This document shows positions 5,126 to 26,634 of a stretch of DNA of 64,000 nt, in pieces. The stretch comes from Comamonadaceae bacterium 2PF (lineage in GTDB: Bacteria; Pseudomonadota; Gammaproteobacteria; Burkholderiales; Burkholderiaceae_C). The translations under genes and the position numbers were made by a program. The DNA lies in NCBI GenBank assembly GCA_005502875.1, contig SCMV01000018.1, positions 1-64,000 of the forward strand, in the 5' to 3' direction. The notes beneath the pieces are model-generated. The model worked only from the letters and a program-made list of their open reading frames with translations. It had not been told where the DNA came from and did no database searches. How positions within the stretch are numbered: position 1 is the first letter of the stretch; each line of letters starts with the position of its first letter.

Positions 5126-5430
5126 GAACGAGCTCCGTGGTTGGACCAGAGGTGGGGTGAAGCGAAGGCAAAAGCGAATGCGAACGACTCTAGTTACGGG
5201 GTGTGACAAAGGGGTCGGGCACGTCGCGCCATGGCCTGAGCCGCTTGGTTCATCGGGAATGCGGACGCGGGGCGAGCGGGTGTGGCGTTTGATGAACCCT
5301 GGGGCCACCAAAGCGCGCTCGGGTGGCGAGGGGCACCCTTTGGAGGGGGAGGATTCCGTTACGCTTGGACACGCCGGAACGAGCCTCGCAAGAAGGACGC
5401 ATCAGCCCGGCGCACAAGGGAGCAGTTGAG
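5126..5430. other. Intergenic region between divergent phoX-like gene and defence island
   Basis: This 305-base stretch separates two divergent genes. It holds the minus-strand ribosome site of the PhoX-like gene and, at the right end, AAGGGAGCAG leading to the TTG at 5431. I see no tRNA, attachment repeat, transposon end or convincing palindrome. Promoters for both genes must be here, but no clear -35/-10 pair stands out. Confidence 0.5.
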
Positions 5431-7917
5431 TTGATCGTCTACCAGGCCAGCAAGCGCCAGTTCATCCAGCACACGTTTCACGACGACATCGAGCAGGTGT
5501 TGTCGGACCAGTACTTGCGCACCACCGGCCGCCACCCTGCACCCGCTGAGTTCAGGGCCTGGCAGAACTCGCTGTTCGAAGTGGGCGAGGTCCTGAAAGA
5601 CGAGGCCATCCCCGACGACATGGGCGTGGCGCTGGAATACACCGTTCCGCAAACCTCCAAGCGCATCGACGTGCTGCTGACGGGGGAAGACGAGGCGGGC
5701 ACGCCCAAGCTGGTCATCATCGAACTCAAGCAGTGGTCAGAGGCCCGCTTCAGCGAGAAGGACGGCATCGTCTGGGCCCGCCGTGGCGGCAAAGCCGGCG
5801 AAACCGAAGGCCCCCACCCCAGCTACCAGGCCTGGTCGTACGCCGCGCTGCTGAGCGACTTCAACACCGCCGTGTACGAAGGTGGCGTGGCCCTGCAGCC
5901 CTGTGCCTACCTGCACAACTACCCCAAGCGCGACGGCGTCATCGACCACCCGGCCTACGCGCCGCACATGCAGCGCGCGCCGCTCTTCCTCAAAAAAGAA
6001 GCAGACCAGCTCAAGGCCTTCATCAGGCAGCACGTGCGCCACGGTGACAAGCGCAACCTGCTTTACCTGATTGAGCACGGCAAGATCAGGCCGTCGAAGA
6101 TGCTGGCCGACAGCGTGGCCGGCCTGCTGCAGGGCAAGCAAGAGTTCGTGCTGGTGGACGACCAGAAGCTGGTGTTCGAAACCGCGCTGCAGGCCGACGC
6201 CAAGGCCCACAAGCCAACGCATCAGGGCCTGGACCAGGGCAAGCAACCGCGCAAGCAAGTGGTGATCGTGCAAGGCGGCCCCGGCACCGGCAAAACCGTG
6301 GTGGCCGTGAACCTGCTGGCCGCGCTGCTGCAACGCCAGCGCAATGCGCGCTACGTGTCCAAGAACGCGGCGCCGCGCAGCGTGTACGCCGCCAAGCTGA
6401 CGGGCACCTTCAAGAAAACGCACATCCACAACCTGTTCAGCGGCTCGGGCTCGTTCGTGGACTGCCCGGCCAACACCTTCGACACCCTGCTGGTGGACGA
6501 GGCCCACCGCCTGAACGAGAAGTCGGGCCTGTACGGCAACCTGGGCGAGAACCAGGTGAAGGAAGTGATCAACGCCGCGCGCTGCACCGTGTTCTTCGTG
6601 GACGACGACCAGCGCGTGACCCTGGCCGACGTGGGCCACAGCGACGAGCTGCGCAAGTGGGCGCGCGAGCTGGGCGCCGACGTGACCGAGCTGACGCTGG
6701 CCTCACAGTTCAGGTGCAGCGGCAGCGACGGCTACCTGGCCTGGTTGGACGACGTGCTGGGCATCCGCCCCACGGCCAACACCGAGCTGGAGCCCCGCGA
6801 GTACGACTTCCAGGTGCTGAGCAGCCCCACCGAGCTGCACGCCCTGATTGAAGAGAAGAACCGCGCCAGCAACAAGGCCCGCGTGGTGGCCGGCTACTGC
6901 TGGGGTTGGCCCAGCAAGACCGACCCAAGCGCCTTCGACATCGAGATGCCCGAGCACGGCTACCGCAGCCAGTGGAACCTCACGCAGGACGGCAGCCTGT
7001 GGATCATGGCCGACGAGTCGGTGGCGCAGGTGGGATGCATCCACACCTGCCAGGGCCTGGAGGTGGACCACGTGGGCGTGATCATCGGCCCCGACCTGGT
7101 CTACCGAGACGGCCGCATCCAGACCGACCCGAAGGCCCGCGCCAAGTCAGACAAGAGCATCAAGGGCCTGGGTGTGATGATGAAGCGTGACCCCCAGGCC
7201 GCGCAGGAGCTGGCCGACCGCATCATCAAGAACACCTACCGAACGCTGATGACGCGGGGCATGAAGGGCTGCTATGTGTACTGCTGCGACCCGGCGTTGG
7301 CCGAGTACCTGCGTGGGCGGCTGGGGCAGCGGCCTGCTGCCCATGAAGTCACCGAGGTGGCTGAGGTTGCGGTGCGTCTGCCCATCAAGCCTGCCCCGTT
7401 GACGCCGACGGGCGCCAAGGTGCTGCCGCTGCGGCGGGTGAGCGAGGCAGAGCGCGCAAAGGGCGTGCCCGCCGTGCCGGTGGTGAGCCTGAAGTTTGCG
7501 GCAGGTGCCTTCAGCGACCCGCAAGCGCTGGAAGAAGGCGCTGAAGAGTGGGTGGAGCTGCCCGAGTGGGTGAAGCCTCAGCCCGGCTTGTTCGTGGCCC
7601 AGGTGGTGGGCGAGTCGATGAACAAGCGCATCCCCAACGGCGCGTGGTGCCTGTTCAGGGCCAACCCGCAAGGCACGCGCAACGGCAAGATCGTGGTGGT
7701 GCAGCACCGCAGCATCAGCGACCCGGAGACGGGGGGCAGTTACACCGTCAAGCGGTATCGGAGTGAGAAGGTGGTGGATGCGGATGGGTCTTGGCGGCAC
7801 GAGAGGATTGAGTTGGTGCCGGAGAGTGATGGGGTGGGGTTTGGGGTGATCTCACTCAAGCCGCGTGATGCGAGCGAAGTTGCGGTGGTAGCCGAATGGC
7901 TGACGTCGTTCGACTGA
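5431..7917 (+). CDS. PD-(D/E)xK-like / DUF2075 helicase / S24 peptidase fusion
   Basis: The TTG at 5431 is preferred because GGGAG sits at a good distance upstream and the protein then starts MIVYQASKRQF; the frame is open further upstream. Residues about 40-130 contain D80 and E98-L-K100 (RIDVLL then VIIELKQW), the spacing of a restriction-like nuclease core. Residues 282-289 (GGPGTGKT) are Walker A and LLVDEAHRL near 354 is Walker B of the DUF2075 (Schlafen group 3-like) SF1 helicase. The C-terminus is LexA/S24-like, with GESM serine 729 and VKRY lysine 774 as the expected dyad. The 828-residue fusion could sense damage or invading DNA and act as a nuclease-helicase. Its codon use is host-like, and it ends 43 bases before the ssp-type operon, so membership of that operon is uncertain. 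Confidence 0.8.
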   Translation: MIVYQASKRQFIQHTFHDDIEQVLSDQYLRTTGRHPAPAEFRAWQNSLFEVGEVLKDEAIPDDMGVALEYTVPQTSKRIDVLLTGEDEAGTPKLVIIELKQWSEARFSEKDGIVWARRGGKAGETEGPHPSYQAWSYAALLSDFNTAVYEGGVALQPCAYLHNYPKRDGVIDHPAYAPHMQRAPLFLKKEADQLKAFIRQHVRHGDKRNLLYLIEHGKIRPSKMLADSVAGLLQGKQEFVLVDDQKLVFETALQADAKAHKPTHQGLDQGKQPRKQVVIVQGGPGTGKTVVAVNLLAALLQRQRNARYVSKNAAPRSVYAAKLTGTFKKTHIHNLFSGSGSFVDCPANTFDTLLVDEAHRLNEKSGLYGNLGENQVKEVINAARCTVFFVDDDQRVTLADVGHSDELRKWARELGADVTELTLASQFRCSGSDGYLAWLDDVLGIRPTANTELEPREYDFQVLSSPTELHALIEEKNRASNKARVVAGYCWGWPSKTDPSAFDIEMPEHGYRSQWNLTQDGSLWIMADESVAQVGCIHTCQGLEVDHVGVIIGPDLVYRDGRIQTDPKARAKSDKSIKGLGVMMKRDPQAAQELADRIIKNTYRTLMTRGMKGCYVYCCDPALAEYLRGRLGQRPAAHEVTEVAEVAVRLPIKPAPLTPTGAKVLPLRRVSEAERAKGVPAVPVVSLKFAAGAFSDPQALEEGAEEWVELPEWVKPQPGLFVAQVVGESMNKRIPNGAWCLFRANPQGTRNGKIVVVQHRSISDPETGGSYTVKRYRSEKVVDADGSWRHERIELVPESDGVGFGVISLKPRDASEVAVVAEWLTSFD

Positions 7918-7960
7918 CGATGCCGGTGAGTAACAATTGCCCAAAAATGGGAGCAAGAAC

Positions 7961-9859
7961 TTGACGACAAACGCAGAGGCGCAGTACGCCGACATGCCCA
8001 GCCTTGTCTGGGTCAAATTTCTACGCAGCTACGGTCCGACCGCAAACAACTTGACCATGTTCGATGAATATGTGTCGAATGCTTTGGGCCGCGCTAACGT
8101 CCAGCCGGTCCAGCTGTCCGCGCCCATGCTTGATGACATGGTGGCTCACATTGAGTCTCGCGCGCCTGGCTCACTCTTGATTGCAGGTACAGCAGGTGAT
8201 GGCAAGACGTACCACTGCCGATCTCTTTGGACTCGCATCGGTGGGGATCCCAAAGTTTGGGCTGCTAAAGGCAACGTGAAAGAGCTCACTTTGACGGATG
8301 GCCGTTTGGCGGTGTTCATCAAAGACCTCTCCGAATTCAATGGACAGGAAAGCGATCAGCCTTTACTGAGGCTAGAAAAGTCGGTTCTTGAGGGGGACGA
8401 TTCTGAAGTTGTCGTCCTTGCAGCCAATCACGGGCAAATTCTTGATCGCCTGCGCGATCTTGGTAAACGGCAAGATCGCGTTCATCCGCTCCGTAAGCCT
8501 CTGCAGGATTGTTTTTTGCAGGCAGACGCCGCTCCCCAACGTCTTGCAGTTTTTGATCTCAGCCGATCAACCAGCCGCAAGACCATTGAAGAGGTGGCTA
8601 AGGCAGTTGCTGGCCACGCGGAGTGGGACCAATGTATGCGTTGTACCTTCAGCGCAAGTGGAAAGGTTTGCCCAATCAACGAAAACCGACTCCGCTTGCT
8701 TGGCGAGGCTGATGACGGTCAGCTGGCACGTCGTCTAGGCGATTTGGTTGAAATCGCGAGTCTCAATGGGCTGCATTTGCCCGTGCGTGATCTATTGGCT
8801 CTCTGCGCCAACATGGTTTTGGGCTATGCCGACGGCAAGCTGGTCAAAGAGAACTTGATGACTTGCGCGGATGTGCCAAAGATCCAAGAAATCAATCAAC
8901 TTGGCAAAGCCAGTATTTACGCGAACGCGTTTGGCGCGAACTTGCCTAGGCGCAGGGCCTCAGATCGCCCTGTCTTTAGGGCTCTTGGTAGCTTTGGCAT
9001 TGGGGAAGAGACCACCAACTCAGCCGATGGCTTGCTGGTTTATGGGAAGGACGATTCCCGCATGCAAGCAGACTTTGATCGGTTGGTTGCTTCCGACCCA
9101 ATTTATGGTGCCACTGCAGAGTTTCGCGCCGCGCAGGATGCCTACCTTGAGGGCGCCGAGGGGGCTCGCTTGGAAGATGGCTCTTCTGCCTTCTTGCAAC
9201 TGCTTGAGGCGCAACGTCGCAGGCTCTTTTTCACACTTCCTGACGCGGATGTTGAGTATCCCAGGTGGTCGATGACCGCATTCCGGTATGCCGGTGAATA
9301 CATGGAGGCCTATGAGTCACTCAAGGCCAAGAAGCCCGTAAGCGAAGTGGTACGCGGACGAGTCACACTCGGCCTTAATCGAGTCTTGACGGGGCTGCTC
9401 TTGGAGAACGTGGATCGCATCTTCATTGCCAGCTCCGGTGGGTTCACACAAAGCCGCGTGAGCGTGCTGTGCGATCGTGAAGTCCCCTCGCGTCGTCAAG
9501 GTGGTGTGGGTATGGCCATCAAGCTCGATGAAGTAGCTGGTCGGCCGCAGCTTGAGGTGTCACTCGCGCCCGGCCGTGGCAATTCAGTCTTCTTTGACCT
9601 CACGCCCATTCGCTATGAGTTTTTATCTCGCGTGGCAGAGGGATCCTTGCCAGCTAGCTTTTCCAATGAGTGCCTTGAGGACTTGTTGGCCTTCAAGGCC
9701 AAGCTGTTGCGCAAAGCCGAAATCGTCAGGAATGCAAACCAGGAAGGCGATGACGATGAGGTAAGCGGAGAGGCGTCCGAGCTGACTCTGAACTTCATCG
9801 AAATCGAGTCCCGCGGAGGCGGATTCACGCGCCCGGTGACTGTGAGGGCTTCGGAATGA
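7961..9859 (+). CDS. sspF: SspF/DptF-like ATPase, phosphorothioation-linked restriction
   Basis: The TTG at 7961 follows GGGAG by seven bases, which favours it over the in-frame TTG at 7937. The 632-residue protein has a Walker A motif GTAGDGKT near residue 76 and a Cys-rich finger-like segment (CMRC, then KVC) near residue 227. By size, position and P-loop it matches the F subunit of DndFGH/SspFGH restriction modules, which work with a G subunit and a large FtsK/HerA-type H subunit to damage DNA lacking phosphorothioate. It overlaps the next gene by four bases (ATGA), implying coupled translation. The assignment rests on architecture, not on an alignment. Codon use is visibly less GC-biased than in the flanks. 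Confidence 0.7.
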   Translation: MTTNAEAQYADMPSLVWVKFLRSYGPTANNLTMFDEYVSNALGRANVQPVQLSAPMLDDMVAHIESRAPGSLLIAGTAGDGKTYHCRSLWTRIGGDPKVWAAKGNVKELTLTDGRLAVFIKDLSEFNGQESDQPLLRLEKSVLEGDDSEVVVLAANHGQILDRLRDLGKRQDRVHPLRKPLQDCFLQADAAPQRLAVFDLSRSTSRKTIEEVAKAVAGHAEWDQCMRCTFSASGKVCPINENRLRLLGEADDGQLARRLGDLVEIASLNGLHLPVRDLLALCANMVLGYADGKLVKENLMTCADVPKIQEINQLGKASIYANAFGANLPRRRASDRPVFRALGSFGIGEETTNSADGLLVYGKDDSRMQADFDRLVASDPIYGATAEFRAAQDAYLEGAEGARLEDGSSAFLQLLEAQRRRLFFTLPDADVEYPRWSMTAFRYAGEYMEAYESLKAKKPVSEVVRGRVTLGLNRVLTGLLLENVDRIFIASSGGFTQSRVSVLCDREVPSRRQGGVGMAIKLDEVAGRPQLEVSLAPGRGNSVFFDLTPIRYEFLSRVAEGSLPASFSNECLEDLLAFKAKLLRKAEIVRNANQEGDDDEVSGEASELTLNFIEIESRGGGFTRPVTVRASE

Positions 9860-11415
9860 CCGATATTTTTAAGCGCCCAGAGATCAAGAGTGTTGACTTC
9901 TGCGTCGACGAGAACATTTGGGGTCACCGTCTTTATGACGAGCAGTTGCCGCATTTGACGGTGCTTGAGTTCCTGGGTGCGCTGGGCTCGAACTTGGACA
10001 ATCCACTGCGCCCTCACGGCGGTCTTGGTGGCGCATTCAGGTTCCAACCACAGCGCCAGATCCGACTGCGTGGCCTTCTGTTCAACAACCCCTATGTCGA
10101 ATCCATTTCGGAGAGCAAACTCTCCGATGAAGAGAAGTGGCGGCAGTGGTTGGATCGCTTTTGCCAGGGAGCGACAGGAAATGGCGATAGCGTCAACGAC
10201 ATGGCGTATCTTCGCCAAGCCTTTTCCAGCTTCGACGATTTCGCCAGGGCCGTGGAACTGCTGCGGTCGTCGTCCTTCGAGTCGCGGAGCAACAAACGAT
10301 GGAGCTCCAAGTTCGTCTTCCCCTTTGGCCCCGACGCGCTCTACGAGGACTTGGCGATTGACGCCAAAGGCAAGATGAGTAACGACCGGCGCTTCTTTGC
10401 ACGAACTGGCGAGCTGCTCTACATGATGCTGACGCGAGCCAAGCGTGGTGCTGATCTTGGCGACCAATTGGCCAACCGGCTTTTCGACCGCGAGGCGCCG
10501 ATGAATCGCCTTGCTCGGGCGATGCAAGGTCCTCCACAACGTGCGGATGACTCGCGTCTATCGGGGTACCTACCCGAGGCCACCAATGCACGCTTTGATC
10601 AGCTCTGCGAAGATTGGCTCGCTATCCTCGCCAAAGACATGCCGATCTACGATGCCTTGGAGCACTTGATCGCCATCTCCGGTTTGAACATGCTTCTCTA
10701 CTTCCTCGAGCGCGCGAAGCACGTTGCAGGAGACGACGACCCTGTTGAGCTCGTTTGTGAGATTGTCTCGAAGGAACGCACAAAGGTTCGGGCGCTTTCT
10801 GGTGATAGCTACCAATACAACCAAGGCTTGCCCGCGAAAGCCGTGCGGGCGCACGTTGAGTCAATACGACAAGATGCAGCCTGGGTCGACGCCGCTGCAA
10901 GCGAGTTCCCCGACGCTCAACGGGTGAAGCTCATGCGAGAGCGGTTCCAGTGGCCATCAACGGATGGATCCGATGACGAGGACTATTCGGGTGACAGCCC
11001 TGACGCTTTGGTTGACAGGTTGGTTGATCTTGCTCTGGCCAGGCACGCACAACACGTCGGAAAGATCCACGCGTCGTGGTCACGGGCGATTGGTCTCAGC
11101 TCGCGCCGCCTCTCACGCCGCACCCGCTACGCGCCCAATGATCGGCTGTTGAAGTCCATCGTGGTCACCATCGTCAACGATCGAATGCAGCTTGACGAAT
11201 TCTTGGCAGAAGCCAAAAGACGCTATGGCTTGATTCTTGGCGACGCAGAGGGTTTGCGAATGATCGACGCCAAGCTTGTCGATCAAGACGAGCTCAGCGA
11301 GAACCGCAGCAACCTCGAAGCGCGGCTCGTCAGCTTAGGCCTTGTGCGAAGACTTTCTGATTCCTGCTCATTTGTTGAAAACCCCTTCGCGTACACGGGA
11401 GAGGCTGCATGCTGA
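9856..11415 (+). CDS. sspG: SspG/DptG-like restriction subunit
   Basis: This 519-residue protein lies between the ATPase and the giant translocase, with a four-base overlap at its start and a seven-base overlap at its end. I see no catalytic motif, signal peptide or membrane helix; it looks soluble, mainly helical and charged. Gene order and size fit the G subunit of DndFGH/SspFGH systems, whose individual role is poorly understood. The call depends on its neighbours. Confidence 0.62.
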   Translation: MTDIFKRPEIKSVDFCVDENIWGHRLYDEQLPHLTVLEFLGALGSNLDNPLRPHGGLGGAFRFQPQRQIRLRGLLFNNPYVESISESKLSDEEKWRQWLDRFCQGATGNGDSVNDMAYLRQAFSSFDDFARAVELLRSSSFESRSNKRWSSKFVFPFGPDALYEDLAIDAKGKMSNDRRFFARTGELLYMMLTRAKRGADLGDQLANRLFDREAPMNRLARAMQGPPQRADDSRLSGYLPEATNARFDQLCEDWLAILAKDMPIYDALEHLIAISGLNMLLYFLERAKHVAGDDDPVELVCEIVSKERTKVRALSGDSYQYNQGLPAKAVRAHVESIRQDAAWVDAAASEFPDAQRVKLMRERFQWPSTDGSDDEDYSGDSPDALVDRLVDLALARHAQHVGKIHASWSRAIGLSSRRLSRRTRYAPNDRLLKSIVVTIVNDRMQLDEFLAEAKRRYGLILGDAEGLRMIDAKLVDQDELSENRSNLEARLVSLGLVRRLSDSCSFVENPFAYTGEAAC

Positions 11416-14400
11416 CCGACCGCATCATTGGGCGCGTCGGCGCTGACATCCTTGCCAAACGCATCGCTGGTCCTGGTCAACCCGGCGACTCAGTCGCGCT
11501 CTTCAGGCTCGACAAGCTGTCCTCCAACCAAATCGTGGCAGTTGCTCGCGCCATCCTAGCCAACCCCGACCTGTATGCACGGTTGGACCTCATGATCCCT
11601 GAGGCCCTTGTTGCTGGGCAAGGATTGCCGCCCGAAATCCTGATCGCTCACAACGCTGGTTACGTCCGCAACAACGCCACCACCGACAAGTCTGCCATCC
11701 TGACCGCCAATGGCAACGAGCACAACTTGGCCGACACATTGGGCCATGTGATGGCCATTGGGGCGAAGGAATTGCGCGAGGATCCAGCGCCGTGGGTTGA
11801 GGCAGCCTTGCATGCTGGGGGGCTATCTCCAGTGCCAGATGATCGCGCTGTGTTCCACGCCGCCCTGGGTGGACTTTTGGCGTCCTCTGAACTCTCCTTG
11901 GTTCAGCTTGGGGATTTCTGTACCGAGATCATTGAGGCCATGTCGACGCGTGGGTTCGCCATCCGCGATGCCGTGGGCTTTGCCATGCCGCGTGCTGGAT
12001 TGCCTCGCGACAGCGGATTCTTCTCCAATGCCAAGACTTTTGGCACCCAGCACAAGCCTTGGCAGAAGGCCTTCGCGAAGCTCTACACCCAGCGCGCACC
12101 GCTGCTGAAAAAGCTCCGCCAGAACGGTCAACCCCTCGACCCAGAAGAGTTGGCAGAGCGCATTCAAACCAACTCAAGCGACATCGCCGAAGCGGCACGA
12201 TTGGCCCTCGAAGCCTTCGCGATGGCGCCGGCAGGAGATCAGGATGCAGCGGCAGCCCTCGCACAATTTGAGTGGGAAGCCGATGGCGTCTACCTGGCCT
12301 TTGACAAGCCCAAGGAAAAGCAACTGGGCCTGGTGGATGCGACCATCCGGTTCTTTGATCACGACTGCGACCAAGAGAATTCGCTCGACGCCGAAGACCG
12401 CAAGCATTTGGAAGATCTGAAGTCACGCGAACGTCGGTCGGACTTCACCGAGGAAGACGAAGAGTTCTTCGTTAAGCACCGGCGTCTGCTTGAACAAGAT
12501 GCAAAGTTATGTGCCCGGTGGGAGAAGGCGCTTTATGGCAAGCCCATTGAGTGCACGGACTTCCTGGACGGCTTCGCTCGTGTGGTGAACAGTCTTCACG
12601 CAGGTCTTCGTGACAGCGAAGGCGAGCGGATCTTGCGCTTCACCGTGACCAAAGGCCGTAAGGAGTGGCGCGAGCGCTTCAACTACGACGTTGGCAGCTA
12701 CTTCTCAGCCATGTATCGTGGATTGAAGGAGCTCATGGGCTCCAAGGCCGATTGGAAGGTTGAGCGTTTGCGCAACGCCAGTTTGCCCGATCCGCTTTTC
12801 CAGTATGAGGCGTTCTTCGCAAAGGAAAAGGAACTCCGTAACGACACGAGGAACAAGATCCGCCCCAACGCTTCGTTGGCACGCGCGGCCTTGCAAATCA
12901 AGTTTGACGTGGCTCTGATCCAAGTCTCTAGAGACACAGAGACTGTCCTGGCCAAGACCCAGCTCTTGTGGAGCTACAAGCCCACATCGATCGGCTTGTC
13001 GATGGTCGCAGACATGCGCCGCCTCTTGGAGAAGGGGGCCATCGGCTGCACGGAGGTGCCACGCCGGCTGGTGAGCAAGAAAGGCGGCGTGCAGAACGTC
13101 TCGCTGCTCGACACTGGAACCTTGGAGGCCACTTACTCGACCGACGCGGGCTCGCTTGTTCCCGCTGCCAACAAGCTGCGCAGCCTGCGCCATGAGATCA
13201 AGAGCCGAATCAAAGAGCTCGCTGATGAAGGCCGTTTGACGCCCAGTCAACGCGATGAAGTCCGAGAGGCATGGGACAGGTTTGAGGCTGACTACATCAA
13301 AGCCATGGAGGACTTCGTTGATTTCGGGCTGCACGGTGAGGCGGTCATGCGTCAAGCCGAGTCCTTTGGCGCTTTGATGGCCATCCTCATGGCTCACGCC
13401 CGTGGCGACGTCTGTCGCTCGCGTTTGGTCACCGAAGTGCTTTCGGTGGGTACCGCCCGCGTCGCCGGTGATAACCCAGCGTTGATCATTCCGCCGTGGC
13501 ACCCGGAGCGGATGAAAGCACTGGCGGTCAAACTGCGTCGAGTGGCCGGATTCGCTACCCACCTGCTATCGAGCCAAAGCATTCTCTATGGAGATCGTGA
13601 GATCTTCATGCGTGAGCTTTCAGACGAGATTGCCCACCCGTTCTATCCCGAGATTGCCGTTCTCAACCGAACGGGCGCACCCACGCTGGTGTCCGAGAGC
13701 AGCACGGTCAATGGCTACAGCCTGTTGGAATCACCCACACGTGGCGCCGAAGATGCCATGACCGACGTTGATCCAGCCGCAGCCGCGAAGCAAGCGCGCG
13801 AGCTGCTAGAGCGCTACGTTGGCCTTCAACCTCACGAAGCATCGAATCTCAGCGTCGTACTCTACAACGCCGATGCTGCGGACCTGCCCCTGGCGACCGT
13901 CCGTGAGTTGTCGTCTATCCAAGAAGACGGCAAGCTGCAATGCAGCGTGTCAGTCCGTCACTCAGATCCAGCGAAGCTGCGCCGTGTCTACGGTGAGCTG
14001 GTCAACAAGGCGGGCGACGATCCCGATCTGCCGGTGGTCAGCGAGACCAGCGACAACTTCATCTCGAAGCTGCGCATTTCGGTAACACCCTTTTCAGCCA
14101 CGCCTACAGAAAGCGCCCTGGGCTTCAAGCCATTCGACGTGGCTTTCCTCCATGACGTTGTCGCGCGGGCCGCTCAATCTGAATGGTTGCCCGTGCCTTG
14201 GTCAAACGATCGACCCAGCCTTGAACACGCGCCATCACGCTGGTCGTACCGCAGCGTTTCAGGCGAGCATGAGCTGAAATCCACTACCTACCTGGCCTGC
14301 CCATGGCAGACGGCCTCGGGTTGGGCGTATGTGTCTGCGGTTGCGGCCGTTTGTCGTCAGACTGATGCTTTGCCTGAAGAACGCTACCTGCCCGCACGAC

Positions 14401-16838
14401 GGATCTCGCTCCAGAGCCCAGCTCTGGTGGACATGATCAAAGACGCGCACGACCTCGCCGAATGGGTTGCCACCTACGACGAGTTGCTCGACAAGCGGCA
14501 GTTGCAGCACAACAAGATCACTGTCGTTCGCTATCGCCGTGGTTCCACCAACGGCCGCAACATGATTGTTAGCTCAACGTCTGAGCTGCGTTTGTTAAGC
14601 GTGTTGGTGCGCCGTCGCCTGGATGAACTGAACTTGCAGCTCACCACAGCCGAGCTTCAAGCCATGGCCGAGAAGGCCAAGCATGACGCGCTTTCGATCT
14701 CTGGCGACATCGTTCTGCGCGCAGCCAAGCGCGGCGTGTCTGCCGGCGAGATGCTCGGACTCGTCTTGAGCCGCTATTTGCTGGACGAGGAGTTCAAGGC
14801 TGCTGCGGGCAAGGGCCAGGTCCTGACGGCTTACTTCCTGCTGGACGACTACGCGCGCTGGCTTTCGCAGCCAGAGAGCCGCATCGCCGACATTCTGGCA
14901 ATCAATGTCGAAGAGCAGGACGAGACCGTGCGCGTGGTCATTTCGATCGTTGAATCGAAATACGTTGCTGCTGATGGCTTGTCCAAGGCACGTCGGGACT
15001 CCAAGGATCAACTGCTTGCAACCCTCGGCATGTTCCGAGAGGCGCTTTTCGGTGCCCCCGGGCGCCTTGACCGGGATGTTTGGCTGGCGCGCCTGGCTGA
15101 CATGCTGATTGACGCAGACATCCCGCCGGGCATGACGGCCTTGATGGAACGCGCGCGCTCGAAGCTCCGTGAGGGCGATGTAGAGATTTCGCTGCGAGGG
15201 TATTCCCATGTCTATGTGCACACATCTGATGCCGGTGCGCCATCTGCTTCGGAGCAGGAGCTTTTGGAGGATGCTGACGGCTTCAAGGCTTGGCAGGAGG
15301 TCTTTGGCAGGGCTGACTTGCGAAGGCTTGCCGAGGCCTATGCCAAGGACACCCGTGGGCTCGATGCTCGTGCGGGATTGGGGCCATATCAGCCTTGGGA
15401 TGGGCACAGCTTCAAGAAGCCTGCTGCGCGGGTGCCCTGGTTGGCAGCGATGGGTCAACTGGCAAGCGGAGAGGTTGATGTTGCGGCTGAAGATTCGACC
15501 ATGGGCGCACAGCTCGCCGCGCGTGTTCCTGTCGTCAGCCCAGTAGATGATTCTTTGTCTCTAACACCAGGTCCTGAGGACGTGCTCGCTCCGCCTTCAG
15601 AGGGGACTTCGAGCCCTGCGAAGCAAGCGACTTCCAACCAAAATTCGGCGCTCTCAAAGTTGGTCGCATCCAAGTTTGCCGGTGGAGCGCAGTCCGACGC
15701 TGAGCGTGAAGAATGGGCTCAGGATGTCACCAAGAAGCTCAAGGCCGCGCTCAACAGCTATGGGCTGCAAGCAGCCATCCTGGGCACCCGGTTAACGCCT
15801 AATGGCTGCTTGGTTCGCCTTGCCGGGTCGGATCGACTGCGCGTTGAAGACATCGAGAACAAGCGTACCCAGCTGCTCACCACGCATGCGATCAACCTGG
15901 TCACGGTACAGCCCAAGCCGGGTGAGATCGTGGTCACTGTGGCGGGCACCAAGCGCCAAGCTGTTTCGCTTTGGGAGCTTTGGTCTCGCCGAGAGTTCAA
16001 CCGCAACGTCGCCGGCATCAATACGTCTTTCCTCTTGGGCCTGCAAGAGATCAACGGCTCGCTGCTGTATCTGAACCTAGGTGCGGAGTTCGGCGGGCTC
16101 TCGTCTCACGAGCCGCATTCGCTGGTGGCCGGCGCGACCGGCAGCGGCAAGTCGGTACTGATCCAAGCTTTGATTTTGGACATCGCCGCGACGAACTCTA
16201 AAGATCTGGCGCAGCTCATCTTGATCGATCCGAAGATGGGTGTCGATTACGCACCACTGGCAGATTTGCCGCACATGCGCGACGAGATCGTCACCACCAA
16301 AGAGAAAGCGGCCGAAGTGCTCGAAGCCTTGGTGCAAGAGATGGAAGACCGCTATCGCGCCTTTGCCAAAGCGCGCGCGCGCGATCTGCCAACTTACAAC
16401 TCTAAAGTCTCGGCCGAAGAACGCCTGCCCATGGTCTTCCTGGTTCACGACGAGTTCGCCGATTGGATGCTTGATGACGCCTACAAGGGCGCGGTCGGGG
16501 CTGCGGTGCAGCGGCTGGGCGTAAAGGCGCGCGCGGCTGGCATCCATCTGATCTTTGCAGCGCAGCGCCCTGATAAGGACGTGATGCCCATGCAGCTTCG
16601 CGAAAACCTGGGTAACCGGTTGATCCTTAAGGTCTCCAGCGAGGCAACTTCTAAGATTGCGCTGGATCGGCCGGGCGCTGAGCTGCTGCTAGGCCGTGGG
16701 CATCTGGCCGCGAAGCTCAACGGCGAGCAGGGCCTGGTGTTTGCACAAGCGCCGTTTCTTTCCGACGATGAAATTGCAGAAGCTGTGATGGCGATTTCGC
16801 TCGACAACTCTTTAGGAGCAGCTCATGGCTCCTCCTGA
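11409..16838 (+). CDS. sspH: SspH/DptH-like giant protein with FtsK/HerA-type translocase domain
   Basis: At 1809 residues this is the largest gene in the window. The long N-terminal two thirds carry no motif I recognise. The C-terminal domain (about 1480-1809) is FtsK/HerA-like: GATGSGKSVL Walker A near 1577, LILIDPKMG Walker B near 1602, HDEFADWM near 1678, AAQRPDKDVMP sensor-like segment near 1715 and a GAELLLGRGHL tail. This fits DptH/SspH, the motor of phosphorothioation-linked restriction. A linker near 1360-1420, rich in Ser, Pro and Gly, separates the N-terminal part from the motor. It overlaps the downstream helicase-like gene by 14 bases, so that gene is translationally tied to it. 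Confidence 0.78.
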   Translation: MLTDRIIGRVGADILAKRIAGPGQPGDSVALFRLDKLSSNQIVAVARAILANPDLYARLDLMIPEALVAGQGLPPEILIAHNAGYVRNNATTDKSAILTANGNEHNLADTLGHVMAIGAKELREDPAPWVEAALHAGGLSPVPDDRAVFHAALGGLLASSELSLVQLGDFCTEIIEAMSTRGFAIRDAVGFAMPRAGLPRDSGFFSNAKTFGTQHKPWQKAFAKLYTQRAPLLKKLRQNGQPLDPEELAERIQTNSSDIAEAARLALEAFAMAPAGDQDAAAALAQFEWEADGVYLAFDKPKEKQLGLVDATIRFFDHDCDQENSLDAEDRKHLEDLKSRERRSDFTEEDEEFFVKHRRLLEQDAKLCARWEKALYGKPIECTDFLDGFARVVNSLHAGLRDSEGERILRFTVTKGRKEWRERFNYDVGSYFSAMYRGLKELMGSKADWKVERLRNASLPDPLFQYEAFFAKEKELRNDTRNKIRPNASLARAALQIKFDVALIQVSRDTETVLAKTQLLWSYKPTSIGLSMVADMRRLLEKGAIGCTEVPRRLVSKKGGVQNVSLLDTGTLEATYSTDAGSLVPAANKLRSLRHEIKSRIKELADEGRLTPSQRDEVREAWDRFEADYIKAMEDFVDFGLHGEAVMRQAESFGALMAILMAHARGDVCRSRLVTEVLSVGTARVAGDNPALIIPPWHPERMKALAVKLRRVAGFATHLLSSQSILYGDREIFMRELSDEIAHPFYPEIAVLNRTGAPTLVSESSTVNGYSLLESPTRGAEDAMTDVDPAAAAKQARELLERYVGLQPHEASNLSVVLYNADAADLPLATVRELSSIQEDGKLQCSVSVRHSDPAKLRRVYGELVNKAGDDPDLPVVSETSDNFISKLRISVTPFSATPTESALGFKPFDVAFLHDVVARAAQSEWLPVPWSNDRPSLEHAPSRWSYRSVSGEHELKSTTYLACPWQTASGWAYVSAVAAVCRQTDALPEERYLPARRISLQSPALVDMIKDAHDLAEWVATYDELLDKRQLQHNKITVVRYRRGSTNGRNMIVSSTSELRLLSVLVRRRLDELNLQLTTAELQAMAEKAKHDALSISGDIVLRAAKRGVSAGEMLGLVLSRYLLDEEFKAAAGKGQVLTAYFLLDDYARWLSQPESRIADILAINVEEQDETVRVVISIVESKYVAADGLSKARRDSKDQLLATLGMFREALFGAPGRLDRDVWLARLADMLIDADIPPGMTALMERARSKLREGDVEISLRGYSHVYVHTSDAGAPSASEQELLEDADGFKAWQEVFGRADLRRLAEAYAKDTRGLDARAGLGPYQPWDGHSFKKPAARVPWLAAMGQLASGEVDVAAEDSTMGAQLAARVPVVSPVDDSLSLTPGPEDVLAPPSEGTSSPAKQATSNQNSALSKLVASKFAGGAQSDAEREEWAQDVTKKLKAALNSYGLQAAILGTRLTPNGCLVRLAGSDRLRVEDIENKRTQLLTTHAINLVTVQPKPGEIVVTVAGTKRQAVSLWELWSRREFNRNVAGINTSFLLGLQEINGSLLYLNLGAEFGGLSSHEPHSLVAGATGSGKSVLIQALILDIAATNSKDLAQLILIDPKMGVDYAPLADLPHMRDEIVTTKEKAAEVLEALVQEMEDRYRAFAKARARDLPTYNSKVSAEERLPMVFLVHDEFADWMLDDAYKGAVGAAVQRLGVKARAAGIHLIFAAQRPDKDVMPMQLRENLGNRLILKVSSEATSKIALDRPGAELLLGRGHLAAKLNGEQGLVFAQAPFLSDDEIAEAVMAISLDNSLGAAHGSS

Positions 16839-18480
16839 CGCTCTGGAAAGCTCCGAGACGGGAGAGGCGCTGAATGTGGGCAAGGTGACGCGACTCGCCA
16901 CGCATCTCGCGAGAAGCGACACCGCTGCGCTCAGTGAGCTGCTTGGCCCCTCAATCATGGAACTGATTAGTAGGTTGGGAGCAGACGCGACCAGCCAATT
17001 GGGCTTGGCCTATTTCGTTGTGAACGTGTACGGCGAACGCGAAGTTTTGCGTCGACAGGAGGTTCGCTCCCTCTTGCTCTCCGAGCTTGAAGCTCCCGAG
17101 GCGGCGGAGCTGTGCGCGCTTCTACAGTTGCCAGTTATCACACCGCTGCGAACCCTCAGGGCCATCGACTTCAATGCCGCACCGCAATATTTCGAACCTC
17201 TGGATCGTTGGTATGGGGTAGAGGTTGTTGGATCTCAAGAGGAGGCCCCGCCCTCCGAGGGGTCTCAACGAGCCCTCGCCTCTCATAGGCTGCATAACCA
17301 TCAACTGCAGGCATTTCGCGAGCTTCGTCGAACCATAGCGCGCGCGCCCGCGTCGGTTCTGGTTCACATGCCATTTGGCGCTGGGAAGCTTCGGCTTGTC
17401 GCTACGGCCGCACTCGATCTCTATCGGTCAGAACCTGATGACAGGTCGATTGTTTGGTTTGCACCAGGTACAGCGTTGTGTGACGATGCATTCTCGGAGT
17501 TGCAGGAGGTTTGGCACCAGCTGGGATCGCGTGACATTACGATCCACCAGCTCTATGGTGATCATCCAACGCGTGATCTGGACCAGCTCGGCGGATCGAT
17601 AGCTGTCATCGACATTCTCCGCGTCAGAAGGGATACCCCCGCGCTCGCAAAGCTTGGTTCGTTTACATCGGTCGTCATCCTTGCCGATGCCGAGAATCGA
17701 GTTCACCCTGTGGGCAAGGAAATCGTCGAAAGGATGTCAGCCGGTGGAGCATTTAGCGTGGTCGGTCTGCTCGCTACGCCCGGAGTTGCCGTCCCTGAGG
17801 GGCCGTTGCGGACCTCTTTGAAGCAAGCTTTTTCTGACGCATACATCACTGTCGATCCTAGGTGCGACCTGGAGCTGCTCCGCATCACCGGAGATTTCAG
17901 GGCAATCGACGGCTCAGTCGTGAACTTGATGCGTCCATCGGCAACTAGCGTTCCTGAATGCGCCCCGACTGCGCTAACCGATGACAGCGCTTTTGACTTA
18001 GATCCCGCCTATGCATGCGAGCTCGCCGACAACGTGGAACGCAACGAGCGCTTGCTGGAAATCTTGGAACGGGAGGGCAACGGCCCAGGGCACGTTGTCT
18101 TCTATGCAACAACGGCCAAGCAAGCAAGGCTGTTTGCCGGTCTACTGCTTGTCCATGGCGTGAAAGCAATAGCGATCACGTCAGAAGACTCTGCTGCGGC
18201 CCGGGACCTAGCGTTACAAAGGTTCGTCGGGCGATATGGAAAGGTCTTGTGCCTCCATGGATTTCAACTTGTTGGAAGCGCGAACAAGCACATCTCAGTT
18301 TCAGCCTGTGTGATGGCCGCGCCGACAAAGTCACGCGCAGCAATGATCTCTACGATTGGAAGGCTCGTTCAGGGCCGTGCCCACAGCCTGCCGCCCCTCA
18401 AACTGATCGTGACAGCTGACTCACAAGCCGATGCGGGATGGGTGGGGGCTCTGAACACATGGTCGACTTTGAACACGTAA
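16825..18480 (+). CDS. Degenerate SF2 helicase-like protein in the ssp operon
   Basis: The ATG at 16825 has AGGAG six bases upstream, inside the end of sspH. The 551-residue protein keeps the SF2 frame: Walker A-like PFGAGKL (K188), a Walker B position, LLATPG as motif III, and GRLVQGR (R513, R518) as motif VI. The DExH box reads ADAE at 287-290, and the final Thr/Ser of Walker A is Leu 189. Both changes predict weak or no ATP hydrolysis, although the motif VI arginines remain. It could be a structural or DNA-binding subunit of the SspH machine. I do not know a named family for it. Confidence 0.65.
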   Translation: MAPPDALESSETGEALNVGKVTRLATHLARSDTAALSELLGPSIMELISRLGADATSQLGLAYFVVNVYGEREVLRRQEVRSLLLSELEAPEAAELCALLQLPVITPLRTLRAIDFNAAPQYFEPLDRWYGVEVVGSQEEAPPSEGSQRALASHRLHNHQLQAFRELRRTIARAPASVLVHMPFGAGKLRLVATAALDLYRSEPDDRSIVWFAPGTALCDDAFSELQEVWHQLGSRDITIHQLYGDHPTRDLDQLGGSIAVIDILRVRRDTPALAKLGSFTSVVILADAENRVHPVGKEIVERMSAGGAFSVVGLLATPGVAVPEGPLRTSLKQAFSDAYITVDPRCDLELLRITGDFRAIDGSVVNLMRPSATSVPECAPTALTDDSAFDLDPAYACELADNVERNERLLEILEREGNGPGHVVFYATTAKQARLFAGLLLVHGVKAIAITSEDSAAARDLALQRFVGRYGKVLCLHGFQLVGSANKHISVSACVMAAPTKSRAAMISTIGRLVQGRAHSLPPLKLIVTADSQADAGWVGALNTWSTLNT

Positions 18481-18487
18481 GACGCCA

Positions 18488-20254
18488 ATGACTTTCCCAA
18501 TCATTCCTCAGAACCTATCCATCTCGGCAATGCGAAGCTCTGGCTATCGCGACACGGCACACGCGCTGGCGGAGCTAATCGACAACGCGATCCAAGCGGG
18601 GGAGGAAACCTCAATTCGAACTGAGGTCGAGGTTATCTGCATCGAGGAGGCTTCGACTAAAGGGCGTCGACAAATCTCGCGTATAGCGGTCTATGACAAC
18701 GCTTGTGGGATGAGTGGGAGCTCGCTTAGGAAGGCGCTTCAATTTGGCAACGGATCGCGCCTAGATAAGGCTAACCAGAAGGGCATTGGCAAGTTTGGTA
18801 TGGGGCTCCCCAATTCCTCGATATCCCAGTGCAAAAGAGTGGATGTCTGGACTTGGCAGGGCGGAGAAGTCCATCATGCCTACTTGGACGTGGAGAAGAT
18901 TCAGGCGGGCGCCTTGGTTGATGTTCCGGAGCCCCAGTTGTCCGAGATCCCAAAAGAGTGGCTAACGCTGATCGCAGGCGATGTCCAAGAGCATGGCACC
19001 TTGGTCGTCTGGAGTGAGCTGGACCGTATCTCCTGGAAGCAGAGTACGACCTTGCTTAGACACACCGAGTTCATCAGTGGTCGGGTTTACCGACACTTCC
19101 TGAACGACGAATCCGTTCGAATCCGCCTCGCCGCGTACGAGAGCAAGACGAACTCGACCATCTATCAAAGCTACGTCCGGCAGAACGATCCGCTCTACCT
19201 CATGTCTGGTACGAATGCGCCTGAACCGTTTAATCAGAACCCCGCCTTTGTGCCCTTTGGCCAGCCAATTGTTTTGAATGTGGCATACGGTGGTGCCGAG
19301 CATCCTGTGACCATCGTCGCTTCGATCTGCAAACCGGAGACGAGACGGGAAGGTGGTAGTAAAGCCATCGGGCAGCATGCGCACAGGAATCAAGGCGTAT
19401 CCGTCGTGAGGGCTAGACGCGAACTAGAGCTTAACCTCAGCTTCACGAACTCCTATGACACCCGTGAAAGGTGGTGGGGAGTCGAGGTTCAATTTGAGCC
19501 AGGTCTAGACGACGTTTTCGGCGTCACCAACAACAAACAAACGGCCACAGGATTCACACGTTTGAGCTTAGAGGATGACGCCTTTGAGGAGGGCCTGAGC
19601 GTCAAGGAGTACCAAGAGCGGCTTGAGCAGGACCGTGATCCGCGGCTTGCCATGTATCGCATCACTCTTGAGATCGACAAGATCCTGAAGTCGATGCGTA
19701 CGCTAGTAGCGACTATGCGAGAGGGCGAGCGCCTCCACACGAAGGCGGAGCGCCCCGAGAACAGAGCTGAGAAGGCGGCTACTGACTCGCTGGCGAGGCG
19801 CCGAGAGCGGGTCGGCGATACCGGCAGAAGTGATAGAGAGGAACACGCACCTCCAAGCGACCGCGCATCGGCACTGACCGCGGGCATCGTTCAGGACGGC
19901 GTTGATGAGGCAAAAGCGCAAGCAATCGCCGTAGATTACGTTAGCAAGAACATCAAGTTCCGTTTTCGGCATGCCGATTTGCCCGGCTCTCTGATCTTCG
20001 ACGTCTCTACGGTTGGTGGCGTCATCCTAATCACACTTAACACCCGTCACCCGGTTCACGCCAGGCTCTTCGAGGCCCTGAGGGCAGAAGAAGATGGGCC
20101 TGAAGGGAAGTACGCGAGAGAGGTTCTCTCTCTTCTGGCGGCCTGGGCCCGCATGGAAGATGAAGCAGGCAGTGACAAGCAACTGCGAGTCCTTGAAGAC
20201 AGCCGCAATCAGTGGGGTCGGATGGCGATGGACTTTTTCGATGTGGAGACCTAG
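18488..20254 (+). CDS. GHKL (HSP90/MORC-like) ATPase in the ssp operon
   Basis: The 588-residue protein carries the full GHKL ATP-binding set: ALAELIDNA (E29, N33), VYDNACGM (D70, G74) and GIGKFGMG (99-106), as in MutL, HSP90 and MORC/paraMORC proteins. Residues about 400-465 are charged and coiled-coil-like (REGERLHTKAE, SLARRRERVGD). The last 120 residues form a separate, unrecognised domain. Bacterial paraMORC-type ATPases are known beside restriction and helicase genes, where ATP-driven dimerisation is thought to clamp DNA. The gene starts seven bases after the helicase-like gene and ends two bases before the nuclease-like gene, so the three form one unit with sspFGH. Confidence 0.78.
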   Translation: MTFPIIPQNLSISAMRSSGYRDTAHALAELIDNAIQAGEETSIRTEVEVICIEEASTKGRRQISRIAVYDNACGMSGSSLRKALQFGNGSRLDKANQKGIGKFGMGLPNSSISQCKRVDVWTWQGGEVHHAYLDVEKIQAGALVDVPEPQLSEIPKEWLTLIAGDVQEHGTLVVWSELDRISWKQSTTLLRHTEFISGRVYRHFLNDESVRIRLAAYESKTNSTIYQSYVRQNDPLYLMSGTNAPEPFNQNPAFVPFGQPIVLNVAYGGAEHPVTIVASICKPETRREGGSKAIGQHAHRNQGVSVVRARRELELNLSFTNSYDTRERWWGVEVQFEPGLDDVFGVTNNKQTATGFTRLSLEDDAFEEGLSVKEYQERLEQDRDPRLAMYRITLEIDKILKSMRTLVATMREGERLHTKAERPENRAEKAATDSLARRRERVGDTGRSDREEHAPPSDRASALTAGIVQDGVDEAKAQAIAVDYVSKNIKFRFRHADLPGSLIFDVSTVGGVILITLNTRHPVHARLFEALRAEEDGPEGKYAREVLSLLAAWARMEDEAGSDKQLRVLEDSRNQWGRMAMDFFDVET

Positions 20255-20256
20255 CC

Positions 20257-21342
20257 ATGAGTGGACGAGAAGCCATTCGCGGTTTTGCCGTGCAGACACT
20301 CATATGTCTGCTCGACTCCTTGTGGACGGACACAACTTGGTCAGCCGTCACACTTGAACCTGACTCGGACAACGACAAAGTCGATATTAGATGGGAGTAC
20401 GCCGACGGATCCAGCTGCGCTCAGCAAGTCAAATCGTCTAAGAACCAAATTGGCAAGGCAGAAGTCGCCGCTTGGTGCAAAGAACTCAAAGAGTCCGACC
20501 CCCCAGCGGACAAGTACCAGCTTCTCTTGGCAGGGCCGATCGCTGCTACTGTTCAGTCGGAGGCGCCGTTTGACGGCGTCGAGATTCCCACTCCCACTTC
20601 GATGGACACGTTGGCTTTGCTCGACCAAGCCATCACGAAGGTCGATCGTTACTTGACGGCGAAGTCCATCGAGCCGCTTCCACTAACCCTCCGCGAGTCA
20701 CTGATTTACGAGCTCGTCGCTCGCCTTCTGCAGGCCGCAATACATGGACGGCGAATGACTAAAGAAGAGTTTGATGGATGGCTGCTGACCGGAGTTACAG
20801 CATCCTATCCGCATGCGGTCAGTCAACGCCTGACGGCAAACTGCGCTGTGCTGTGGAGCGTTTTGGATCTCGCAGGACCAGTAGTCGCTTCTGACCGAGC
20901 TTTCGAGCTAGTACTGCCGCTCACCGTCGTCAACGGCGGATCGTCTACAGCCGTAGTGGAAATGTTTCTTCTGCGTGTTTGGTCGCCTACAAGGGAGATG
21001 CGGTATCGACCGAATCTGGTTCTTCCTGATCTGCCTGGACAACCGCATGCGAAGCGCCGTCAGTTGGGCCGCCCGTTCGGAGACTTCGCGATTGCACCTC
21101 AATCTTCTGTGGAGCAGGCCGTACTGTTTGTCCCAGTACACGGACCGACATACCAAGCAGACGAGTGGCCGCGAGGTGACTACGAGGCGGAACTTTTCGT
21201 CAAATACGTGGCGCAGCCGGCGATTTGTTCTGTCAAGAGGGTGACTATCACAATCCGGATGGACGAGTTTTCTGTCTTGACGTCCGGCGAGACTAGGTCA
21301 ATCGCAGTATCCAATATGGATAAATATCTGAACCTGCTGTGA
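20257..21342 (+). CDS. Cap4/DUF4297-like nuclease candidate
   Basis: The ATG at 20257 lies two bases after the previous stop; an upstream in-frame start would overlap it. The 361-residue protein opens with a helix (GREAIRGFAVQTLICLLDSL), then DKVDIRWEYADG and AQQVKSS. D43 and Q57-V58-K59 give the D...(E/Q)xK core of Holliday-resolvase-type nucleases found in Cap4/DUF4297 effectors. The remainder (about 100-361) shows no family I recognise. Nuclease activity is inferred from this motif only. It closes the operon and faces the sspBCD operon tail to tail. Confidence 0.6.
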   Translation: MSGREAIRGFAVQTLICLLDSLWTDTTWSAVTLEPDSDNDKVDIRWEYADGSSCAQQVKSSKNQIGKAEVAAWCKELKESDPPADKYQLLLAGPIAATVQSEAPFDGVEIPTPTSMDTLALLDQAITKVDRYLTAKSIEPLPLTLRESLIYELVARLLQAAIHGRRMTKEEFDGWLLTGVTASYPHAVSQRLTANCAVLWSVLDLAGPVVASDRAFELVLPLTVVNGGSSTAVVEMFLLRVWSPTREMRYRPNLVLPDLPGQPHAKRRQLGRPFGDFAIAPQSSVEQAVLFVPVHGPTYQADEWPRGDYEAELFVKYVAQPAICSVKRVTITIRMDEFSVLTSGETRSIAVSNMDKYLNLL

Positions 21343-21441: not shown

Positions 21442-22284
21442 TTATTTGTGGCAGACGGCGCAAGAGCCGTTGCCCTCGTCGACCCCGTAGATATCGTCAA
21501 TGTCGTCGGGGCAAGTCTTCACGGGCCGCAGCGGATTGATGGGGATACTTTTGAGCATGCGGGCCCGGCGGATGCCGTATTCAGCTTGGATCTCCGCGAT
21601 GCGCTCAGGCTGTTCCATGTCCGAGAGCGACTCGCCTTTGGACCAGGTGAAGGGCGAGCCGTGCTCCAGCGCGTCCTTCTCCAGGGCCTTGGCGGCCTCG
21701 TAAGCGTCGGGGTGCTTCTCGCGCAGGCGCACCCACTCGATCTTCTGCTGAAAGAAGCAGAAGGTGCAGCCGCTGCGTGAGCGCCATTCGTAATACTTTG
21801 GATAGCCGACGCCGGAGTTCTCCAAGATGTCGATGACGCCTGCCTTGTCAATGCCAGCCTCACGGAAGGGCAGCTTCACGAAGAGGTTTTCAGCCTTGGC
21901 CGCATAGCCCTCGCGATAGTCCTCGTCGGCGCGAATGGCCACATACGACGTGACCTTGTGGCCAGCAGCCAGCATGGGCCGGACCCATTCTTCGAACGGG
22001 GCAAGCTTCAACTTCCGAGTGCACCAGCGCGAATTGGGATTGGGCAAAAAGTGATTGTATTGGCGCAGCCAAAACTTGAAGTCGCGATTGGGATTCAGCC
22101 GCAGGATGGGCTTGTGCAGCTTGCCTTCGAGCTTAGCGAGAAACTCGTAGACCTCTGGCAGCTCTTCGCCGGTGTCGGTGTAGAAGTATTCGATGTCGAG
22201 ATCAGGGTGCTTGGTGGCCATGTAGACGGCCAGCGCGGCGGAGTCCTTGCCCCCCGAAATCCCCAAAACGTGGCGTTCAGCCAT
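21442..22284 (-). CDS. sspD: SspD-like PAPS-reductase-family sulfurtransferase
   Basis: The 280-residue protein has the PP-loop SGGKDS at 10-15, a TDTGEE strand end at 37-41, and cysteines 88, 173, 176, 258, 275 and 278 (WCTR, CTFC, TCPD, CAVC) that could hold an iron-sulfur cluster. This is the DndC/SspD type of PAPS-reductase-like enzyme that activates the DNA backbone with ATP for sulfur insertion. It overlaps sspC by eight bases. A general PAPS reductase is less likely because of the DUF4007 and ATPase partners. Confidence 0.8.
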   Translation of the reverse strand: MAERHVLGISGGKDSAALAVYMATKHPDLDIEYFYTDTGEELPEVYEFLAKLEGKLHKPILRLNPNRDFKFWLRQYNHFLPNPNSRWCTRKLKLAPFEEWVRPMLAAGHKVTSYVAIRADEDYREGYAAKAENLFVKLPFREAGIDKAGVIDILENSGVGYPKYYEWRSRSGCTFCFFQQKIEWVRLREKHPDAYEAAKALEKDALEHGSPFTWSKGESLSDMEQPERIAEIQAEYGIRRARMLKSIPINPLRPVKTCPDDIDDIYGVDEGNGSCAVCHK

Positions 22285-26604: not shown

Positions 26605-26634
26605 CCACAGAATACTGTGGAAAAACACAGTTTC
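26605..26634. promoter_or_regulatory. CCACAG/CTGTGG repeat cluster upstream of the ssp operon
   Basis: CCACAG and CTGTGG form a palindrome with AATA between them (26605-26620). A third half-site, CACAG, follows at 26626-26630 after an A run, making a second possible pairing with CTGTG. The cluster is 83 bases upstream of sspB and 18 bases past the end of the NYN gene. An operator or a terminator of the upstream gene are both possible. Confidence 0.4.

Follow-up and report, generated by a model that had tools for sequence, protein, structure and literature searches.

Why does a protein built like a nuclease and a helicase end in a peptidase domain of the LexA and UmuD type? The question is raised by an 828-residue protein that is encoded, from a TTG start, at positions 5431–7917 of the window, the whole 64-kb stretch of Comamonadaceae DNA analysed here (coordinates refer to the forward strand unless stated otherwise). 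Its start site is common to the homologues (MIVYQA...), and the gene is the single match of its kind across the genome, at one place. We propose, tentatively and at somewhat less than an even chance, that the protein is a stand-alone defence-type nuclease-helicase that bears its own LexA-like off-switch. The domains, fold, dyad, scissile site, distribution and SOS-box absence reported below were established by computation.

Domain organization of the 828-residue protein

The preliminary description had read a nuclease-like region, a DUF2075 helicase and an S24 peptidase in one chain, marked by D80/E98-x-K100, a Walker A motif at residues 282–289 and S729/K774, and had remarked on the lack of an N-terminal HTH. 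The ORF, Pfam and the alignments bear this out. All of these residues and all three parts, the nuclease part by motif, lie on the one 828-residue chain, and its N-terminus is made up of nuclease and helicase, with no HTH family returned by Pfam.

The nuclease assignment rests on the D...ExK motif, because no nuclease family exceeds the Pfam cut-off for the N-terminus; the match to NERD reaches 16.2 bits against a cut-off of 22.1. The PD-(D/E)XK-like motif (D80 ... E98-L-K100, positions 5668–5730) is invariant in all 66 rows of an enzyme-part alignment (A1), which comprises the 828-residue protein and 65 of the best 80 of 344 relatives and omits the 15 of those 80 loci that are cut, frameshifted, tail-truncated or near-duplicate. 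Likewise invariant in A1 (66/66) are G282-G287 and K288 of the Walker A motif (positions 6274–6297) and D356-E357 of the helicase. The SF1-type helicase domain of Schlafen group 3 spans residues 275–620 (positions 6253–7290) and matches SLFN-g3_helicase (PF09848, the old DUF2075) with an E-value of 1.8e-100 and 337 bits against a cut-off of 24. Human SLFN11 (7zel) is the top Foldseek match of the 828-residue model (E 1.1e-11), with a TM of 0.25, and the top row of VIA-align is UvrD (Z 20.6), SLFN11 scoring a Z of 18.4 at an rmsd of 12.9. The helicase is thus plainly SF1-like, and its Schlafen label comes mainly from Pfam.

The AlphaFold2 model of the protein has a mean pLDDT of 88 and one floppy stretch, a disordered linker with a pLDDT below 50 at residues 635–664 (positions 7333–7422), which forms the junction between the helicase and S24 domains. 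Upstream of the gene, a conserved leader, TTCCGTTACGCTTGGACAC, spans positions 5354–5372, and its core is common to four relatives: TTCCGTTAC.CTT occurs 5′ of the gene in L002, L003, L004 and L024 and is absent at L021 in the same comparison of loci. We infer that this leader may serve as a promoter or otherwise in the regulation of the gene; a promoter scan for the gene found no sigma-70-like site.

Fold and predicted cleavage site of the S24 tail

The S24 tail occupies residues 676–828 (positions 7456–7914), and both Pfam and the predicted fold uphold the S24 identity claimed for it earlier. Peptidase_S24 (PF00717) matches residues 684–776 with an E-value of 2.6e-7 and a score of 30.8 bits, above the family threshold of 23.3. 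When the tail (676–828) is modelled alone, the Foldseek matches ranked 1–25 are all LexA, lambda repressor, UmuD or UmuD′, which identifies the LexA/CI/UmuD fold. The tail sequence profile matches LexA weakly (best E 0.0024 against the PDB).

The same domain order, for which the preliminary description had proposed a search, recurs among the relatives. An intact-looking S24 domain is found in 38 of the 41 long homologues from the best 80 of 344 relatives, the three others (L025, L027 and L029) having decayed tails, and by column 40 of the 41 retain Ser729 and 39 retain Lys774. A tail alignment of 35 rows and 153 columns (A2) omits these decayed tails as well as two truncated (L019 and L020), one near-duplicate (L009) and one frameshifted (L040) sequence. 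The catalytic Ser729 (G-E-S-M, positions 7615–7617) and Lys774 (T-V-K-R, positions 7750–7752) are invariant in 35/35 rows of A2. Together with Gly692, they are among the 21 invariant columns, a coincidence with a chance of 0.002 if all columns are taken as equal.

The S24 alignment, with A or C at P1 and G at P1′, predicts A691-G692 (positions 7501–7506) as a scissile dipeptide of the LexA/UmuD type. The preliminary description names neither this site nor the adjoining Ssp genes, the MazG partner and the related tails on other nucleases described below. Gly692 precedes Ser729 by 37 residues, and this spacing is 37 in 22 of the 35 rows of A2, 35 in 11 rows, and 34 and 38 in one row each. The site is Ala-Gly in proteobacterial members and Cys-Gly in Bacteroidota members; the scissile site of UmuD is Cys-Gly. 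The Ser, the Lys and the scissile [A/C]-G are kept across the tails of Pseudomonadota and Bacteroidota. The two lineages without S24 motifs (L029, and L025 with L027) have lost both the dyad and the scissile site along with much of the domain, and this joint loss is weak evidence for function because the whole domain decays in them.

A set of 68 tails, which covers several kinds of enzyme, omits L105, L106 and L107 and retains repeats (63 distinct cores), shows the same features. Ser and Lys are each found in 68/68 tails and a P1′ Gly in 66/68, L115 having Thr in its place and one further tail a gap; 56 tails carry Ala at P1 and 11 carry Cys. The N-terminal fragments predicted from these tails end in FAA (18), AAA (14), IAA (11), AAC (11), VAA (5), LAA (2), MAA (2) or another sequence (5), and that of the 828-residue protein ends in Phe-Ala-Ala.

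Related tails on other enzymes

Is the tail confined to one kind of enzyme? Tail matches were obtained with A2 in 13/399 genomes of the order, 8/398 of the phylum and 18/395 of the Bacteroidota, and with a broader tail alignment (A3) in 11/229 and 19/237 genomes; the searches share some genomes, and ordinary free-standing S24 proteins account for some of the weak matches. The enzymes that bear these tails were assigned by Pfam or PADLOC on example loci. They include GIY-YIG enzymes with a Schlafen helicase (L146 and L142, the GIY-YIG of L142 being below cut-off), SauUSI-like PLD-helicase-DUF3427 enzymes (L135, L136 and L139; PADLOC type IV for L135, E 3e-245), HsdR-like type I enzymes (L133 and L195; PADLOC type I for L133, E 1e-37), a type III Res (L115; PADLOC type III, E 2e-143) and another ResIII-like enzyme (L141 and L092). 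A diverged S24 group is carried by an HNH enzyme (L150) and by PLD-helicase enzymes (L196–L198). By eye, its tails have Y-L-L-R, with an Arg-like residue at the Lys position, where Y-T-V-K-R is expected, so the dyad of this group may be incomplete.

Several of these enzymes have recurrent neighbours. A SAM methyltransferase gene lies directly 5′ of three members of the diverged group (L150, L197 and L198). A NUDIX gene, called by Pfam for L135, L137, L138 and L139 and by near-identity for L136, lies directly 5′ of all five SauUSI-like S24 members (L135–L139), an arrangement that parallels the MazG gene before the Schlafen-type enzymes. MazG lies 5′ of 8 of the 9 GIY-YIG-Schlafen S24 members retrieved.

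In plasmid records there was one match, on Halomonas PA16-9, and in phage records there was none. Viral contigs yielded one matching locus, L115; at this locus, whose contig is classed as viral, a type III Mod gene adjoins the Res gene with the tail, and A-T replaces A-G at the scissile site. No split S24 gene was detected by S24 profile near tail-less homologues across 81 loci (the window and the best 80 of 344 relatives), and the S24 rows of L040 and L020 stem from the one enzyme gene, read in a second frame or after a frameshift, and not from a separate S24 gene.

Gain and loss of the tail

The tail is an add-on module, since most tail-less homologues retain the same enzyme: 28 of the 66 homologues in A1 (from the best 80 of 344) lack it and have the same invariant catalytic residues. 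On the enzyme-part tree (66 rows, from the same best 80), the presence of the tail needs 8 changes against 22 in shuffles, and at least 7 of the 8 are forced by well-supported branches. Thus, the tail is inherited, yet it has been repeatedly lost or gained. The tail tree, which took in 30 of 36 non-window tails, requires 5 changes for 6 enzyme kinds, the minimum possible, and the kinds are nested among each other, which agrees better with a small number of transfers than with free mixing.

The Schlafen-type enzymes have probably acquired an S24 domain more than once. L200 is a GIY-YIG-Schlafen protein with a gene 5′ of it that is MazG-like by motif, and its S24 domain is distinct, with a Pfam S24 E-value of 8e-24, far above the tail scores. 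It groups with free-standing S24 proteins on a branch with support of 99/98, in a region where the tree tool warns of long branches. A second, independent acquisition is therefore likely, although not proved.

Neighbouring genes

A gene for a MazG-like pyrophosphohydrolase, assigned as MazG-like by Pfam on two examples, lies directly 5′ of the enzyme gene in 62 of 81 loci (the window and the best 80 of 344). By tail state, the counts among these 81 loci are 32/39 for tailed, 27/35 for tail-less and 0/3 for decayed loci, with 2/3 for cut loci and 1/1 for the frameshifted one. MazG accompanies the enzyme with or without the tail and thus does not explain the tail. The gene lies 865 bp upstream in L024 and just downstream in L075 and L078. 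No MazG-like gene lies within the 64-kb window; one on the same contig at ~64.7 kb has 60–67% identity to partner MazG over ~100 residues (best 12 rows). The MazG position is taken in L025 and L027, the two loci of one decayed-tail lineage, by an ORF in which Pfam, applied to a part of the L025 product, finds an HNH_2 domain.

On its other side, the gene adjoins a phosphorothioate-defence island. SspF (7937–9859, plus strand; PADLOC E 8e-250) begins 19 bp 3′ of the stop codon on the same strand and is followed by SspG (9856–11415, plus strand; E 2e-224) and SspH (11409–16838, plus strand; E 0), and the minus strand encodes SspD (21442–22284; E 6e-135), SspC (22277–25612; E 0) and SspB (25605–26522; E 2e-118). 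This close, co-directional placement would suit a functional component of the SspFGH/SspBCD system. However, linkage makes such a role very improbable, and the protein was rejected as an Ssp component on this ground. None of SspB, C, D, F, G and H is present at any of the 80 homologous loci (best 80 of 344), 53 of which extend more than 9.5 kb downstream, and none of four other SspF loci from 300 genomes of the order has a homologue in the ~7.5–8.4 kb upstream. Moreover, the SspF spot is taken by a different gene in the nearest relatives, L002, L003, L004 and L024. Thus, the nuclease-helicase-S24 gene is probably a unit apart from Ssp. The gene that follows it in these four relatives has 391–393 codons as called and encodes in L002 a NOV_C protein (PADLOC PDC-S36), and the first bases 3′ of the stop (CGATG) are common to the window, L002, L003 and L024. 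We read this junction as a probable exchange beside the fusion gene, in which one defence gene took the place of another.

The Ssp island has further features of its own. A perfect SOS-box-like sequence, CTGTGGAAAAACACAG, lies at 26615–26630, 93 bp 5′ of the SspB start on the minus strand; it is the sole perfect SOS-box match in the 64 kb, where ~1 is expected by chance, and Ssp modification might be under SOS control. Between SspH and the convergent SspDCB genes, three genes at 16825–21342 encode a ResIII-like helicase, a GHKL ATPase like MzaB and a PADLOC ‘Endonuclease’ effector match, a possible extra defence unit within the island. Adjoining SspB, positions 26653–27417 encode a protein with NYN and OST-HTH/LOTUS domains, of which L002 holds a partial relative (71% over residues 170–246).

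SOS control at the DNA level

If the tail belongs to the LexA type, is the gene itself controlled by LexA? A scan that took in as much as 350 bp upstream, plus 20, found the perfect LexA box CTGTN8ACAG at 0/81 loci (the window and the best 80 of 344). One-mismatch boxes occur at three of them (L019, L024 and L078), and as a positive control the genome’s own lexA has a perfect box 43 bp before its start. SOS-box control was thus rejected as far as perfect boxes are concerned, and transcriptional SOS control appears unlikely in the Pseudomonadota members; the boxes of Bacteroidota may differ. With no perfect SOS box, any SOS input would be post-translational, through the S24 domain.

The proposed off-switch and its alternatives

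What would the S24 tail do for the enzyme? A self-cleavage switch in the 828-residue protein, which the preliminary description had suggested to turn the enzyme on or off upon RecA activation, is a fair reading, because the S24 domain is real, has a LexA-type fold, keeps Ser, Lys and [A/C]-G and resides in a nuclease-helicase host that has no HTH. In the proposed mechanism, residues 1–620, a PD-(D/E)XK nuclease with a Schlafen-group-3 helicase, would act on foreign or aberrant nucleic acid, and the flexible linker would hold the C-terminal S24 domain to them. Upon accumulation of RecA-coated single-stranded DNA, RecA would stimulate the S24 domain to cut its own A691-G692 bond, as in LexA and UmuD. 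The cut enzyme would lose its tail, and its new Phe-Ala-Ala end would probably be recognized by ClpXP as a C-degron; removal of the enzyme by ClpXP during chromosome repair would constitute a built-in restriction alleviation. We infer that the protein is cleaved, that RecA is the trigger and that ClpXP follows; its role in defence is surmised from the company that it keeps. LexA’s own -VAA end is a ClpXP C-degron. In IrvR, self-cleavage between Ala and Gly uncovers a C-degron for ClpXP (PMC7101444), and ClpXP degrades HsdR after DNA damage as an established form of restriction alleviation (PMC12707154).

Cleavage could also work in the opposite direction. The uncut tail would then inhibit the enzyme, and RecA-driven self-cleavage in response to phage- or damage-made single-stranded DNA would free the enzyme to act, so that the infection is cut short or the cell dies. 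The cut would leave nuclease and helicase whole, the Cys-Gly site of the Bacteroidota tails is like that of UmuD, and the scheme would follow the logic of UmuD and UmuD′, in which such a cut activates the protein (PMC9578287). However, we consider an ON switch rather unlikely and, by argument, OFF more likely than ON. The active parts lie N-terminal of the site, a domain order that is LexA-like and not UmuD-like, and the freed end would be Phe-Ala-Ala. Furthermore, the 28 of 66 tail-less homologues (A1, from the best 80 of 344) presumably work without a tail, and the restriction enzymes of types I, III and IV with related tails have to be active as soon as DNA enters, ahead of any damage. The S24 domain may instead self-cleave, or serve as a dimerisation or sensor domain, with RecA not being the trigger; the signal would come from a product of the phage, from a change in nucleotides on which MazG or NUDIX acts, or from dimerisation alone. 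IrvR, an S24 protein, cleaves without RecA, although the same source calls it the exception among characterised members (PMC7101444). A small nucleotide-hydrolase gene lies 5′ of most members, as with the MazG and NUDIX genes described above, yet MazG is not tied to the S24 domain, being as common before tail-less as before tailed enzymes. We regard such a RecA-independent role as unlikely.

Some of the evidence counts against the off-switch that we favour: the LexA profile match is weak, the HNH/PLD group has Arg-like residues, L115 has A-T at its site, UmuD cleavage activates and IrvR cleavage is RecA-independent. The 11 of 68 tails that would end in AAC count against both the degron and the switch. 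The degron is a guess, as the conserved [A/C]-G may merely reflect S24 specificity.

A broader reading, which we advance with more reserve as a possibility, takes in the Schlafen-type nuclease-helicases, the types I, III and IV restriction enzymes and the HNH/PLD relatives. The S24 tail would be a portable, post-translational SOS off-switch that has spread among unrelated defence nucleases and was gained at least twice by Schlafen-type enzymes. The tails described here suggest that some bacteria build a DNA-damage switch into anti-virus enzymes. If so, defence enzymes would sense host DNA damage directly, and the SOS response would be tied to defence without a transcription factor. Few systems, such as ClpXP acting on type I HsdR, explain in detail how cells survive their own nucleases during repair, and a self-cleaving module common to several classes of enzyme would offer a general protection that is encoded in the gene itself. 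It would also be a natural protein cassette to shut nucleases off upon DNA damage. The components are known, and the literature searched, with few subscription journals or preprints among it, gave no account of the combination or of S24-tailed restriction enzymes; an earlier description elsewhere is possible.

Comparison with known systems

The tail shares with LexA, UmuD and lambda CI the fold, the Ser-Lys dyad, the scissile [A/C]-G and, by our count, the spacing of 34–38 residues from Gly to Ser (A2). It differs from them in that a nuclease-helicase of ~620 residues, and not a DNA-binding domain, precedes the S24 domain; the N-terminal HTH of LexA is lacking, and by the box scan the 828-residue gene is not LexA-regulated through an SOS box. 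With Schlafen group 3 helicases and human SLFN11, the protein has the helicase domain in common (Pfam, Foldseek). Unlike Schlafen proteins, it appears by motif to have a PD-(D/E)XK-like N-terminus in place of a Schlafen core RNase, and it additionally bears the S24 tail. The best partial PADLOC matches, PDC-S41 (E 3e-15), Nhi (E 1e-10) and AbiO (E 2e-10), cover the helicase part only, and no S24 part of those models was matched. SauUSI-like type IV enzymes have a different nuclease and helicase and carry a related S24 domain after DUF3427 in L135, L136 and L139 and a diverged one in or near DUF3427 in L196; in the available part of its description, SauUSI has no S24 domain (PMC3874153). The proposed outcome is like that of ClpXP-mediated restriction alleviation of type I enzymes, in which the nuclease is destroyed during damage (PMC12707154), whereas the trigger here would be a self-cleavage inside the enzyme.
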